Below, piece by piece: positions 15,153 to 20,517 of a stretch of DNA of 23,660 bases. The first letter of the stretch is position 1, and each line of letters opens with the position of its first letter. The notes under the pieces were generated by a model, which was given only the letters and a program-made list of their open reading frames with translations, was not told the origin of the DNA and did no database searches. The stretch covers positions 1 to 23,660 of the IMG/VR virus record IMGVR_UViG_3300013004_000192, one strand, 5' to 3'. Source of the stretch: a virus. The translations under genes and the position numbers were made by a program.

Positions 15153-15657
15153 TTTTTTCGGTGGGCCTGGGGTTGGAAAAAGTACGCTGGCTTCTGGAAC
15201 CTTTTTTCATTTGAAGCAAAAACGTATCAAGTGCGAACTAGTGACAGAATATGCTAAGACATTAACTTGGGAAAACAGACACTCCACACTACAATGTCAA
15301 CCATATGTTTTTGGTAAACAGTTGTATAGTCTGGAAATTCTTATTGATCAAGTCGATGTTATTATTACAGACTCTCCTATTTGTCTAAGTTTATTTTATA
15401 AAGCGGATAGATATCCTCCATCTTTTGCTCAGTGCGTAATTGATATCTTTAATAAGTTTCACAATATCAACTACTATGTCTCAAGAGCAGAAGATCAGTA
15501 TGACGATGTAGGCAGACTAAGCAGCATTAGTCTTGCAAAAAATATAGATGAGAAAATTTTAACATTTTTAGATGAATTCTACATAGACTATAAAAATATT
15601 CCAAGAAACTTTGAGAGTGCAGAACTGGTAGCCAAAGAGGTTATAGAAAAACTATGA
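15136..15657 (+). CDS. P-loop NTPase, nucleotide kinase-like (AAA_28 type), 173 aa
   Basis: Walker A GGPGVGKST (9-17) and Walker B-like VDVIITDSP (73-81). The arrangement, with EYAKTLTWE after the P-loop and TDSPICLSL later, resembles the NadR/kinase-like ATPase group often found in phages. The substrate is unknown; nucleoside, nucleotide or NAD-related phosphorylation are options for related proteins. It overlaps the SpoU methyltransferase gene by four bases (ATGA). Confidence 0.8.
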   Translation: MTLIVNFFGGPGVGKSTLASGTFFHLKQKRIKCELVTEYAKTLTWENRHSTLQCQPYVFGKQLYSLEILIDQVDVIITDSPICLSLFYKADRYPPSFAQCVIDIFNKFHNINYYVSRAEDQYDDVGRLSSISLAKNIDEKILTFLDEFYIDYKNIPRNFESAELVAKEVIEKL

Positions 15658-16187
15658 ATGTTATTGATGCTCTAAAAGATTTGTCTATAGATACAATCAA
15701 AACATATTGCCAAGATAATGCCATATCAGCCGATGTTGCTATGATTAATATTGGCGGAGACTTTAATTTAAGTACAATGGTCCGTAATGCAAATTTTTTT
15801 GGTTTTAAATCTGTACATTATGTGGGTAAAAAGAAATGGGATAAAAGAGGTAGTGTAGGAACGTACCACTACACTCCAATGTATAACTATAATACAGAAG
15901 AATCTTTTATTTCACATTTTACAAATAGAACAATTATAGCTATTGAAAATAATATTCCCGAATTTGCAGATAAAACAATAGAATTATTTGACTATAATTT
16001 TTCTGGTATTATTGATCCTATTTTTGTCTTTGGTGAAGAAAAGAGAGGGTTGTCACATTACATACTTGATCGTGCAGACATAATTCTTACTATTAAGAAC
16101 CATGGTAGTGTTCGTTCATTGAATGTTGGTACAACGAGCGGAATAGTTATGTCCTATTATAGAAGTATTTTATCTCAAAGAAAATAG
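15654..16187 (+). CDS. SpoU/TrmH-type RNA ribose methyltransferase, 177 aa
   Basis: SPOUT-class knotted methyltransferase that transfers a methyl group from SAM to a ribose 2'-OH in RNA. The three motifs are in order: motif 1 INIGGDFNLSTMVRNANFFG (31-50, catalytic-type Arg44), motif 2 FVFGEEKRGL (124-133), and motif 3 GSVRSLNVGTTSGIV (151-165). Length fits the minimal domain without the N-terminal substrate-recognition extension of some bacterial members. The target is unknown; tRNA or rRNA is likely by family. Upstream of the tmRNA gene by about 250 bases. Confidence 0.85.
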   Translation: MNVIDALKDLSIDTIKTYCQDNAISADVAMINIGGDFNLSTMVRNANFFGFKSVHYVGKKKWDKRGSVGTYHYTPMYNYNTEESFISHFTNRTIIAIENNIPEFADKTIELFDYNFSGIIDPIFVFGEEKRGLSHYILDRADIILTIKNHGSVRSLNVGTTSGIVMSYYRSILSQRK

Positions 16188-16432: not shown

Positions 16433-16784
16433 GGGGGCGTAATGGTATCGACTACGCTATGTGATTTATATTTGCAGGTAGTGGTTGATCGACCGGCCAC
16501 TTTAAAAGTCGATTAAACGCTTTAACTGGCGAAACTCAGTTAGCCCTTGCTGCTTAATAAAAAGCAGTAACAATCTTAGAAAGCGATGAAGGTAGCGTTC
16601 AAAAGATTGTCGTAAAATCCTTCGGCTGCTAGAATAGCCAACGGGTTCTAGCCTGAGATTTGTTGGTGCAGAAAGAAGAATGTTTTTTGTTCTTTATTCT
16701 TTCTTAAGACTTATGAACAAAATAAACCTGTAGACAATATAATGATCTAACGATAGGACAGGGGTTCGACTCCCCTCGCCTCCA
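16433..16784 (+). ncRNA. ssrA: tmRNA (ssrA), 352 nt
   Basis: tmRNA rescues stalled ribosomes and tags the unfinished protein for degradation. The 5' acceptor strand GGGGGCG (16433-16439) pairs with CGCCTCC (16777-16783); the G3-U70 wobble needed for alanine charging is present, followed by discriminator A16784. The conserved GTAATGGTATCGAC 5' end is clear. The T arm is AGGGG-TTCGACT-CCCCT (16760-16776). A pseudoknot precedes the tag: GTGGT (16481-16485) with GCCAC (16496-16500), and ATCGAC (16488-16493) with GTCGAT (16508-16513). The message ends in a doubled TAA. The bases after the discriminator are CTA, so CCA is not encoded and must be added. No promoter is evident; probably processed from the upstream transcript. 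Confidence 0.95.
16525..16557 (+). other. tmRNA tag-peptide reading frame
   Basis: In the only frame ending LALAA, the codons read TGETQLALAA then TAA TAA. The frame extends upstream as NAL before this. The resume codon is inferred to be ACT (16525) because it lies 11 bases after the first pseudoknot, the same distance as in E. coli, and gives 10 encoded residues. The GCT at 16519 is the alternative, giving ALTGETQLALAA. The C-terminal ALAA is the classic ClpXP-type degron. Confidence 0.7.
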
Positions 16785-16793
16785 CTAAATACT

Positions 16794-17363
16794 ATGATTG
16801 ATAAATCAGATGTAATTACATATACCATAGAAGATAATCTAACAAGCCTCATAATCTCTAATGCAAAAAAAGCAGAGATAGGAGGTACTTCTCAAATTAG
16901 AAAATCTCAAGACAGAAAATCTAGTCTTGCTGAAGATCAACTTGTAGGACAAATATCTACATATTGTGCATCTATGATACTGACAGGATCTCCTAATGGA
17001 TATATTAAAGCAAGAGAAAAAGCTAATAATAATCCATTTATAGGAGATAATGGTATCGATATAGATGGTTTAACGAATATTGATATCAAAGGTAGTCTGA
17101 TGAGATACTCATCCGATCCTCTAAAATATAGACTGTTAGTTAGATCAAAAGAAAGACATGATAATTGGATATATGTTTTGGGTTTAGTACCCAAAGAGCG
17201 TCCATATAAGTGTCACCTTGTAGGATGGATTAATGATTCAGAATTACCTTCGTCCACCTATAATGGACCTATAAAGTCTTTACATGGTGCATACGTTGTG
17301 GAGGCCACAAATCTCAAAAAAATAAAAGAATTAATAACTCAAACAAAAAATATAAATCTATGA
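16794..17363 (+). CDS. PD-(D/E)XK nuclease-fold protein, 189 aa
   Basis: Core pattern of the restriction-endonuclease-like fold: a helix with Glu47 (AEDQLVGQISTYCASMIL), GDNGIDIDGLTNIDIKGS (84-101) with Asp89 and D97-I-K99 as candidate metal and catalytic residues, then strands YRLLV and WIYVLGLVP (125-133) and HLVGWINDSELP (141-152). This last set, YVL-LV followed by GW and ELP, is a pattern I recognise from phage nuclease-like proteins of unknown role. Begins ten bases after the tmRNA; overlaps the next gene by four bases (ATGA). Target DNA is unknown. Confidence 0.8.
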   Translation: MIDKSDVITYTIEDNLTSLIISNAKKAEIGGTSQIRKSQDRKSSLAEDQLVGQISTYCASMILTGSPNGYIKAREKANNNPFIGDNGIDIDGLTNIDIKGSLMRYSSDPLKYRLLVRSKERHDNWIYVLGLVPKERPYKCHLVGWINDSELPSSTYNGPIKSLHGAYVVEATNLKKIKELITQTKNINL

Positions 17364-18604
17364 ATAGAAGACATTTTATATCTCATTTATCATCAGTGTC
17401 TACTTCGCTATATGCTTCTTTGACTTTTAGGAATAGTATAGCGGCAAATGCTGAAACTCTCCGTAAAAATAATAAAAGTGCTATTCTAATATGGTTAGGT
17501 GGTGGTGCTAGCACTATAGATATGTGGGATTTAAAGACCGGAGCAGCAACCGGCGGTGCATTTAAACCTATAAATACAAATGCTGATGGTATTCAAATTT
17601 GTGAACATCTACCTCTTTTAGCAAAAAATATGGATAAACTAAGTATTGTCCGTAATATGAGCACAAGAGAAGCGGATCATACAAGAGGTAGATATTATAT
17701 GCATACCGGATATATACCAAATCCTAATATTGAATATCCTAGTTATGGTAGTGTAATATCTCATGAATTGGAATATTTATGTAAAGATTTAGACATACCT
17801 TTATTTGTTAGCATAGGCGGAAGTAGTATTGGTCCAGGATTTTTAGGCATGAGTTATGCTCCATTCGTTGTCAATACTAATGGAACTGTTAGAAATCTTG
17901 ATATGGGGTTAGACGATAACAGAATCAAACAACGTATGGAAATGTTGGCAACAATTGAAAATAAATTCATTAAAGAAAATCGTGGAGAATTTAGTATCGA
18001 TCATTATAAAATACTAAATAAAACTTGGAAAATTATGCACAGCGATCAGATGGATGCGTTTAAAATTCTTTCTGAAAAACAACAAGTCAAAGACAGATAT
18101 GGTAATTCTGCTTTTGGTAAAAGCTGTCTTATGGCTAGAAGATTAGTAGAATCTGGGATACCTTTTATCGAAATCGATTTTGGTGGTTGGGATAATCATA
18201 CTGATATTTTTACAACATTACAGAACCAAAAACTTCCAGACTTGGATAAAGGTATGAGTGCTTTACTTGAAGATTTAAATGATAGGGGTCTGTTAGATAC
18301 CACAACTATTATATGCATGGGCGAATTTGGTCGAACCCCTTCTATTAATTCTAACGCTGGTAGGGATCACTGGGCTAGAAGTTGGAGTGTTGTTGTAGGA
18401 GGAGGTTCTTTTAAAAGAGGTATGATTGTTGGTAAAACCAATGAAGATGGTAAAGAAGTTGTAGGAGATATATACACTTCACAAGATTTAATGGCTAGTG
18501 TCTTAAAAAGTTTAGGCATTTCATTAGAAATTATATTTACTGCTAAAAATGGTAGACCTATGAAAATTGCAAATTCTGGTAAAGTTATTACAGAATTATT
18601 TTAA
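17360..18604 (+). CDS. DUF1501 family protein (sulfatase/phosphatase-fold relative), 414 aa
   Basis: Full-length match to DUF1501, a family abundant in Planctomycetes and related bacteria and thought to belong to the alkaline phosphatase/sulfatase superfamily. Landmarks: MNRRHF then a short apolar stretch and AANAE (possible Tat/signal-like start, about 1-31), IWLGGGASTIDMWD (44-57), PFKPI-like AFKPINTN with EHLPLLAK (82-89), TREADHTRGRYYMHTGY (102-118), GGWDNH (275-280), MGEFGRTPSIN (320-330) and GRDHWAR (334-340). It ends GRPMKI-ITELF as in the family. Position 52 is Thr, where the bacterial members I remember have His (GGPSHxD). Codons are AGA/ATA-rich like its phage neighbours, so it is not a very recent insertion. 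Role in a phage is unknown. Confidence 0.92.
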   Translation: MNRRHFISHLSSVSTSLYASLTFRNSIAANAETLRKNNKSAILIWLGGGASTIDMWDLKTGAATGGAFKPINTNADGIQICEHLPLLAKNMDKLSIVRNMSTREADHTRGRYYMHTGYIPNPNIEYPSYGSVISHELEYLCKDLDIPLFVSIGGSSIGPGFLGMSYAPFVVNTNGTVRNLDMGLDDNRIKQRMEMLATIENKFIKENRGEFSIDHYKILNKTWKIMHSDQMDAFKILSEKQQVKDRYGNSAFGKSCLMARRLVESGIPFIEIDFGGWDNHTDIFTTLQNQKLPDLDKGMSALLEDLNDRGLLDTTTIICMGEFGRTPSINSNAGRDHWARSWSVVVGGGSFKRGMIVGKTNEDGKEVVGDIYTSQDLMASVLKSLGISLEIIFTAKNGRPMKIANSGKVITELF

Positions 18605-18606
18605 TT

Positions 18607-18954
18607 ATGTCTAGAAAAATTTGTACTTACTGCGGTAAAAGAAAGAATAAAGCAAGTTTTCCCAAGCATAGTATGTATAAAGATAATTTAGATAGTAGAT
18701 GTAGAAAGTGTATAAAAAAACATTCAAAGATAAGAAGTAAATTACATAAAAAGGCTCCACCAAAACCAGAAGTTTGTGAGTGTTGTGGAAAAGTACCTTA
18801 TAAATGGTGTTTAGACCATGACCATGAAGATAATAGTTTTAGGGGCTGGCTTTGTGAACCATGTAATACTGGTATTGGTAAATTGGGAGACAATATACAG
18901 TCTATTGTCAATGCTATGAATTATTTTCTGTCTAGGGAAAAAAGATATGAATAA
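18607..18954 (+). CDS. Recombination endonuclease VII-like nuclease, 115 aa
   Basis: His-Me (treble-clef) endonuclease related to T4 gp49, which resolves branched DNA. C-terminal core: C57-EC-C60, CLDHDHEDNSFRGWLCEPCN (68-87) with catalytic-type His71/His73 region and Asn87, then GIGKLGDN. C83/C86 complete the zinc site. An extra N-terminal zinc pair is present (C6-TY-C9 and C32-RK-C35) on a Lys-rich arm, giving two zinc sites in 115 residues. Can also be a free-standing homing-type nuclease. Three bases after DUF1501. Confidence 0.88.
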   Translation: MSRKICTYCGKRKNKASFPKHSMYKDNLDSRCRKCIKKHSKIRSKLHKKAPPKPEVCECCGKVPYKWCLDHDHEDNSFRGWLCEPCNTGIGKLGDNIQSIVNAMNYFLSREKRYE

Positions 18955-19209: not shown

Positions 19210-20517
19210 ATGAAACATCATTTTGACTATGTTTGGGGTATGGTTCGTGATCTTCGTGCTACAAGCAGCACTATTGATAAGCAAGGCATTATTGAGGATT
19301 ATTGCAACCATAATTCCGAGGCTGCAAACTTTACTAAGAAAATTCTACTCTATACTTATCATCCTCTTTGGCAATATAATGTCACCAGCGACAACTTGAA
19401 GAAAAAGGCATCTCTTACAGGAAAGAAATATGACAATATATTTAAGCTTTTGGATGATCTCAAGTCTCGTTGTATTACCGGGCATGATGCTATTGGTGCT
19501 GTTAATAGTTTCATTGATCAACATCAAGAATATGAAGAATTGATTCATTGTATTGTTGACAAAGATCTAAAAACCCGTGCTGGAGATAAGATTATAAATA
19601 AGGCTATTCCAGACCATATTCCAGAGTTTAGCGTTGCTCTGGCAGATAAGTATGATCCTAATATTGTAGACTGGAAGGACGGATGGTATGTTAGCAGGAA
19701 GATTGACGGTGCTAGATGTGTCGCTATTGTTGATTCTAATAGTAACACTACTTTCTACTCCCGCACAGGAAAAGAATTTGATACTCTTGGCGTTGTTGCT
19801 GATGGTATTAAGGCTCTTGGTATTACTAATGTAGTATTTGATGGTGAGCTTTGTCTTGTAGATGAAGATGGAAATGAAGATTTTCAGGGTGTAATGAAAC
19901 AACTGAAAAAGAAAGACCATACGATTCCTAATCCTTCATATAAAATTTTTGACCTAATAACGCACGACGAGTTTTATAGCAAGAAGGGAGAGCATAACAG
20001 ACCATATTCTATCAGATATGCTGATCTGGTCGAAACTATGAAACTGAATGACTGTCCTTGTTTGACAGTACTAGAACAAGACAAAATAAACAACGATGAC
20101 CATTTTGCAGAGTGGGTTGCTAAGGTTGGTGCTAATTCTTGGGAGGGTTTGATGCTTCGTGCTGACGAACCCTATAAGGGTAAGCGTAGTAAAGATCTAC
20201 TAAAATACAAATCATTTTCCGATGATGAGTATGAAGTTATTGATGTAGAAATGGGTCCATTTAGATATGTTAAGGATGGTGCAGAGTGTGAGGAGAGTAT
20301 GTTGTCCTGCGTCACTATTATGCACAAAAATCACCCTGTTCGCGTCGGTTCTGGATTCAGTATTGAACAAAGACAGGACTTTCATAAAGACCCCAAAAAG
20401 ATTCTTGGAAAAATTATTACTGTTCAGTATTTTGCAGAGAGCAGGAATCAGGATGGTGGTATTAGTCTGAGGTTTCCAACATTTAAGATGTTGCACGGAT
20501 TTTTTCGTGAAGTATAG
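19210..20517 (+). CDS. ATP-dependent DNA ligase, 435 aa
   Basis: Seals 3'-OH/5'-phosphate DNA nicks. Motifs: an N-terminal helical domain (about 1-135), motif I SRKIDGARC with Lys164 (162-170), FYSRTGKEF (182-190), motif III VVFDGELCL (208-216), motif IV SWEGLMLR (310-317), motif V DLLKYKSF (329-336), then an OB-fold C-terminus (RVGSGFSIEQRQDF, then ITVQYFAESRN). All catalytic residues are intact. Its own consensus promoter, and Ile mostly as ATT with many CGT Arg codons, suggest high expression. It does not overlap any neighbour. NAD-ligase features are absent. Confidence 0.95.
   Translation: MKHHFDYVWGMVRDLRATSSTIDKQGIIEDYCNHNSEAANFTKKILLYTYHPLWQYNVTSDNLKKKASLTGKKYDNIFKLLDDLKSRCITGHDAIGAVNSFIDQHQEYEELIHCIVDKDLKTRAGDKIINKAIPDHIPEFSVALADKYDPNIVDWKDGWYVSRKIDGARCVAIVDSNSNTTFYSRTGKEFDTLGVVADGIKALGITNVVFDGELCLVDEDGNEDFQGVMKQLKKKDHTIPNPSYKIFDLITHDEFYSKKGEHNRPYSIRYADLVETMKLNDCPCLTVLEQDKINNDDHFAEWVAKVGANSWEGLMLRADEPYKGKRSKDLLKYKSFSDDEYEVIDVEMGPFRYVKDGAECEESMLSCVTIMHKNHPVRVGSGFSIEQRQDFHKDPKKILGKIITVQYFAESRNQDGGISLRFPTFKMLHGFFREV

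Follow-up and report, generated by a model that had tools for sequence, protein, structure and literature searches.

The window analysed here is a whole IMG/VR record of 23,660 bases, and its + strand carries a single tmRNA gene (Table 1). ARAGORN places the gene at 16433-16785 and the RF00023 covariance model is matched end to end (model positions 1-374; E 1e-48), so that two independent methods agree on a complete one-piece tmRNA at 16433-16784/16785. The preliminary description had proposed such a complete gene and suggested a covariance model as a check; its coordinates are right and the score is high. The encoded part of the mature RNA ends at the discriminator A and is followed by the letters CTA (context CCACTA), and the CCA of the tmRNA 3' end is not encoded. 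Two elements that had been described earlier, a G-U pair for alanine charging in the acceptor stem (G3.U70, in GGGGGCG/CGCCUCC) and a pseudoknot upstream of the tag frame (PK1), are both found in place.

Table 1. Coordinates of the tmRNA, its parts and the neighbouring genes in the 23,660-base window.
Feature	Position	Strand	Evidence or remark
SpoU/TrmH-family RNA 2'-O-methyltransferase gene	15654..16187	+	PF00588, E 9.6e-21
80-aa protein with hydrophobic N-terminal segment	16189..16431	+	stop codon 1 nt before the tmRNA
One-piece tmRNA (ssrA), mature encoded part	16433..16784	+	ARAGORN; RF00023, 124.6 bits; covariation in 64 homologues
Acceptor stem, 5' strand GGGGGCG	16433..16439	+	includes G3 of the G3.U70 alanine identity pair
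Pseudoknot 1, before the tag	16480..16514	+	both helices covary
Hairpin around the resume codon (CGC 16518-16520 with GCG 16529-16531)	16518..16531	+	covariation; analogy with helix m
Tag reading frame GETQLALAA, then UAA UAA	16528..16560	+	ARAGORN; codon analysis
Helix 5, encloses the stop codons	16547..16570	+	covariation
Pseudoknot 2	16571..16623	+	covariation
Pseudoknot 3	16628..16666	+	covariation
Pseudoknot 4	16670..16722	+	covariation; second helix least well paired (84%)
T arm AGGGG-UUCGACU-CCCCU	16760..16776	+	RF00023 match; covariation
Acceptor stem, 3' strand CGCCUCC	16777..16783	+	discriminator A at 16784
Protein of unknown function, starts 9 nt past the tmRNA	16794..17363	+	phrog_18407 (unknown function), E 5e-5
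DUF1501 protein gene	17360..18604	+	PF07394, E 1.6e-97
Endonuclease VII gene	18607..18954	+	PF02945, phrog_2633
ATP-dependent DNA ligase gene	19210..20517	+	phrog_114, E 8e-82; tag-independent lineage marker

The tmRNA is co-directional with the genes of the cassette around it, as was described before, and these neighbours are viral rather than bacterial, which agrees with its earlier assignment to a phage. Of the two flanking proteins, the upstream one, described earlier as membrane-anchored, has a hydrophobic N-terminal segment, and its homologue adjoins the tmRNA in another contig (L015). The nuclease fold that was proposed for the downstream product is not borne out, as this product has no Pfam, NCBIfam or PDB match and phrog_18407 is its sole match. 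RtcB, an RNA ligase of phrog_968, ThyX and UvdE are also encoded in the window. The SpoU-family gene adjoins the tmRNA in several relatives too, and its product could modify the tmRNA, tRNA or rRNA. Promoter-like signals at the tmRNA show no excess (10 sites vs 9.3 in shuffles), in line with the earlier remark that no promoter of its own is visible, and processing of the tmRNA from a longer transcript is therefore likely.

The DUF1501 protein, which starts with MNRRHF, has relatives in six other contigs (L015, L029, L037, L042, L043 and L080) and no match among the INPHARED phages; in several relatives, too, its gene is a neighbour of the tmRNA. This family is typical of Planctomycetota. Its best plasmid match, in Singulisphaera, has 30% identity and is not decisive for assigning a host.

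The fold was analyzed in 64 distinct homologous RNAs. For the 95 predicted pairs, including the four pseudoknots, 95.9% of 6049 pair cells are paired, a fraction that is biased upward because the RNA of the window served as template for the structure, with slid controls reaching only 37-45%. Two-sided changes are found at 74 of the 95 pairs (831 cells) and back each of the four pseudoknots, and in a shuffle control none of 500 reached the observed values of pairing or of two-sided changes. The acceptor stem is paired at 7/7 positions in all 117 copies scored. Its G3.U70 pair is kept in 64/64 homologues; G1-C72 and G2-C71 are likewise invariant while acceptor pairs 4-7 covary, which suggests that selection acts on alanine charging.

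The first tag codon is GGC (16528), and the sole residue ahead of its G is the Ala that the tmRNA carries. The preliminary description had read the tag as TGETQLALAA; the ALAA end stands, whereas the leading T comes from an upstream ACU triplet and does not belong to the tag, which is GETQLALAA, with 9 aa. Counted on a tree, codons 4-9 (QLALAA) show one amino-acid change (L to F) vs about 33 synonymous codon changes, where some of the constraint is structural because these codons lie partly inside helix 5; codons 2-3 show 32 amino-acid changes. The tag reading frame, its stop codon and the degron are, judging from these codon changes, under strong purifying selection. Among the 45 tmRNAs of a tag-free scan, 35 encode GETQLALAA and the others GVNQLALAA, GANQLALAA, SETQLALAA and GVNQFALAA. 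DNA-ligase loci add GTNQ, GTTQ, GNTQ, GNNQ, GKTQ and GSHQ, each followed by LALAA, and the divergent GEVSTLALAA and GEVTLALAA. The long tag that ARAGORN gives for contig L124 was set aside as misplaced, since the alignment gives GEVSTLALAA. The selection on frame, stop codon and degron would be needless if the RNA acted mainly as a decoy that titrates SmpB or EF-Tu without tagging. An inhibitor derived from a phage tmRNA has been proposed before, in the case of a tmRNA fragment without a tag in mycobacteriophage DS6A (PMC4131195), and we consider this role very improbable for the tmRNA described here.

The variation of the second tag residue is connected with a short hairpin around the resume codon, which pairs tmRNA positions 86-88 with 97-99. 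Of the 64 copies, 50 have C-G and 13 have U-A at its outer pair, 86-99, and in the remaining one (L124) this pair is broken. Its two sides switched together in 7/7 phylogenetically independent comparisons (sign test p 0.016), a count that is weakened by the distance of only 13 nt between both bases, as local recombination could carry both. As tag codon 2 begins with base 99, the choice for residue 2 between the sets E/V/A and T/N/S/K is made by the hairpin; apart from this covariation with the upstream base, codons 2 and 3 vary freely. A 'helix m' at the same place in earlier tmRNA models was predicted from energy and weakly supported (PMC1168896). The hairpin found here is analogous to it, and covariation now backs a resume-codon helix that was previously an energy prediction only.

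One of the questions raised by this locus is how widely the tmRNA is distributed. Tag-independent scans find the same RNA in more than 100 IMG/VR contigs. A degenerate pattern for GETQLALAA, restricted to TAA stops, is found in 51 viral contigs, and the same pattern has one match in 84,980 bacterial and archaeal species genomes, in a Chloroflexi MAG that uses different codons. A scan with the flanking RNA and the first eight tag bases gives 72 contigs, and the scan without the tag gave one false match besides its 45 tmRNAs. When the DNA ligase was used as the marker, each of the 32 loci that extend 3.5 kb or more upstream contained the tmRNA, six of these contigs being already known from the RNA or tag scans. 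Based on these loci, the tmRNA is apparently universal in the lineage, as a core gene.

Dozens of contigs share this gene order along a single strand: ThyX, UvdE, a deaminase, small ORFs, sometimes SpoU or tRNA-Ile, the tmRNA, sometimes DUF1501, endonuclease VII and the ligase. A syntenic 197-kb contig carries genes for terminase, portal, rIIA, RNR, DNA polymerase, DnaB and UvsX; its terminase shares only about 25% identity with those of isolate phages (Bacillus phages) and no match was found for its capsid candidate. These large phages have been little sampled as a group, and no INPHARED phage record matches the RNA beyond the T-arm. In two related phage contigs, group I introns follow the ligase (L137 12992-13188 and L141 14080-14267).

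Mobile elements often integrate at tmRNA genes, and one could suppose that the gene is a captured passenger, i.e., a host gene fragment without a role, or that the contig is misassigned bacterial sequence. With viral neighbours, no match to the tmRNA in a plasmid search, deep covariation and presence in every testable locus of the lineage, this explanation is hardly credible.

The tag had also been suggested as a pointer to the host, and this suggestion fails, as the Chloroflexi MAG is the only genome among the 84,980 species with GETQLALAA. Similar tags exist in the class of this MAG (L053), where Chloroflexota tmRNAs share G-initial tags that end in LALAA, including GETQLALAA and GERQLALAA, after AACU; the pattern AACTGGC..Q(L/F)ALAA is present in 8 of 400 genomes of its phylum. 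Yet, the RNA likeness outside the tag is weak (profile E ~1e-10 at best) and the full resume hairpin is absent from the 19 Chloroflexota tmRNAs checked. This comparison covered Chloroflexota only, so no host is assigned.

Another question is why such a tag is kept. One option is that the phage tmRNA outcompetes that of the host mainly in order to change the tag and the fate of the rescued proteins, through the choice of adaptor or protease or through evasion of host signals. The near restriction of GETQLALAA to these viruses and the strict conservation of its C-terminal half would fit this option. In E. coli, the LAA end is what ClpX needs and adaptors bind the half of the tag that holds residues 2-3. 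These are the residues that vary freely here, while the LAA degron is kept, which points to ordinary degradation and makes a tag swap unlikely as the main purpose. Somewhat less doubtful, though still speculative, is the idea that the whole large-phage lineage may have evolved and fixed a tag of its own, GxxQLALAA, distinct from that of the host, which would be installed at each infection as part of the host takeover and be partly dictated by the resume-codon hairpin.

The explanation that best fits our data, to which we give a probability of about 0.8, is that the RNA is a functional, lineage-specific phage tmRNA that would rescue stalled ribosomes together with host factors. Based on the sequence comparisons we infer the following course. 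The tmRNA would be transcribed within the polycistronic cassette and matured by host RNase P, 3' processing and CCA addition, after which host AlaRS would charge it through G3.U70. Host SmpB and EF-Tu would then deliver it to ribosomes that stall on truncated mRNA during infection, the ribosome would append Ala-GETQLALAA and terminate at UAA, and host Clp-type proteases would degrade the tagged product via its LAA end. SmpB was not found in 39 related viral records, most of them incomplete, and this implies the use of host SmpB. The phage would thereby keep ribosomes available at a time when mRNAs and tRNAs, its own and those of the host, are being cut, a benefit suggested by the nearby RNA ligases and tRNA genes. 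With a near-identical tag across the phage family that is almost absent from sequenced bacteria, ribosome rescue seems to be a built-in part of infection by these viruses.

In many relatives (L003, L007, L008, L012, L014, L016 and others) the tmRNA is preceded on its own strand, at a distance of no more than about 1 kb, by a tRNA-Ile(TAT) gene. Together with the RtcB and RNA ligase genes of the window, this would also suit a replacement copy: the tmRNA and tRNAs of the host would be cut or depleted, either by the host's defence or by the phage, and the phage would provide resistant versions of the tmRNA and of some tRNAs, mended by its RNA ligases. No nuclease that targets tmRNA was identified and ARAGORN finds no tRNA gene in the window, so that we regard this explanation as possible but clearly the less probable one.

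A pathway in which the phage supplies its own ClpP protease along with the tmRNA was considered as well and set aside. A ClpP-family protein is encoded in 15 of 18 large relatives (e.g., L207 1387-2028 and L212 1465-2130), and its best family match is the head maturation protease phrog_94. It is probably such a capsid protease, and its gene adjoins the terminase in two genomes. In most of the genomes looked at, the gene is not beside the terminase.

Phage tmRNAs as such are already known, from Bacillus phage G and the mycobacteriophages Bxz1 and Wildcat (PMC4131195), from huge phages (PMC7162821) and from Melnitz (PMC9004378), and the one described here likewise belongs to a large phage genome. 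Their rarity had been overstated: with tmRNA in 402 of 18,146 phage genomes (PMC9004378) they are uncommon rather than very rare. The Melnitz tmRNA is two-piece and riboswitch-linked, whereas that of the window is one-piece; some huge phages also carry SmpB, unlike the 39 records of this lineage; and the tags that ARAGORN reads in four other phage regions are unrelated to GETQLALAA, a tag that was not met in the literature searched. With the standard one-piece bacterial tmRNA (RF00023) it shares the G3.U70 acceptor, T arm, long helix 2, PK1, tag frame, helix 5, PK2-PK4 and the LAA degron, and it differs in a tag found in 1 of 84,980 species genomes and in the covarying 3-bp resume hairpin. What is new is the tag of this virus lineage, the apparent universality of the tmRNA within it and the covarying hairpin. 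A curated database holds 79 unique phage sequences among 97,179 tmRNAs (PMC11915505), to which this one uncultured lineage adds at least 64. With these sequences one can test if phages depend on a ribosome rescue of their own and for what reason they keep a fixed tag.

Counting somewhat against the functional reading, non-canonical T-loops were seen in 15 of the 117 family tmRNAs (about 13%; contigs L003, L005, L009, L011, L029, L032, L059, L075, L077, L103, L140, L150, L151, L154 and L159), the tmRNA of the window not being among them. Several of these variants are missed by ARAGORN and a few by RF00023. Some have 6 nt (TTCGAT, TTCAAT, TTCGCC, TTCGCA, TGCGAT and GTCGAA), and others have 7 nt without TTC (GGCAGNN and TGCAAAT) and are accompanied by a D-loop without GG, as if, judging by these paired losses, the elbow contact had co-evolved.
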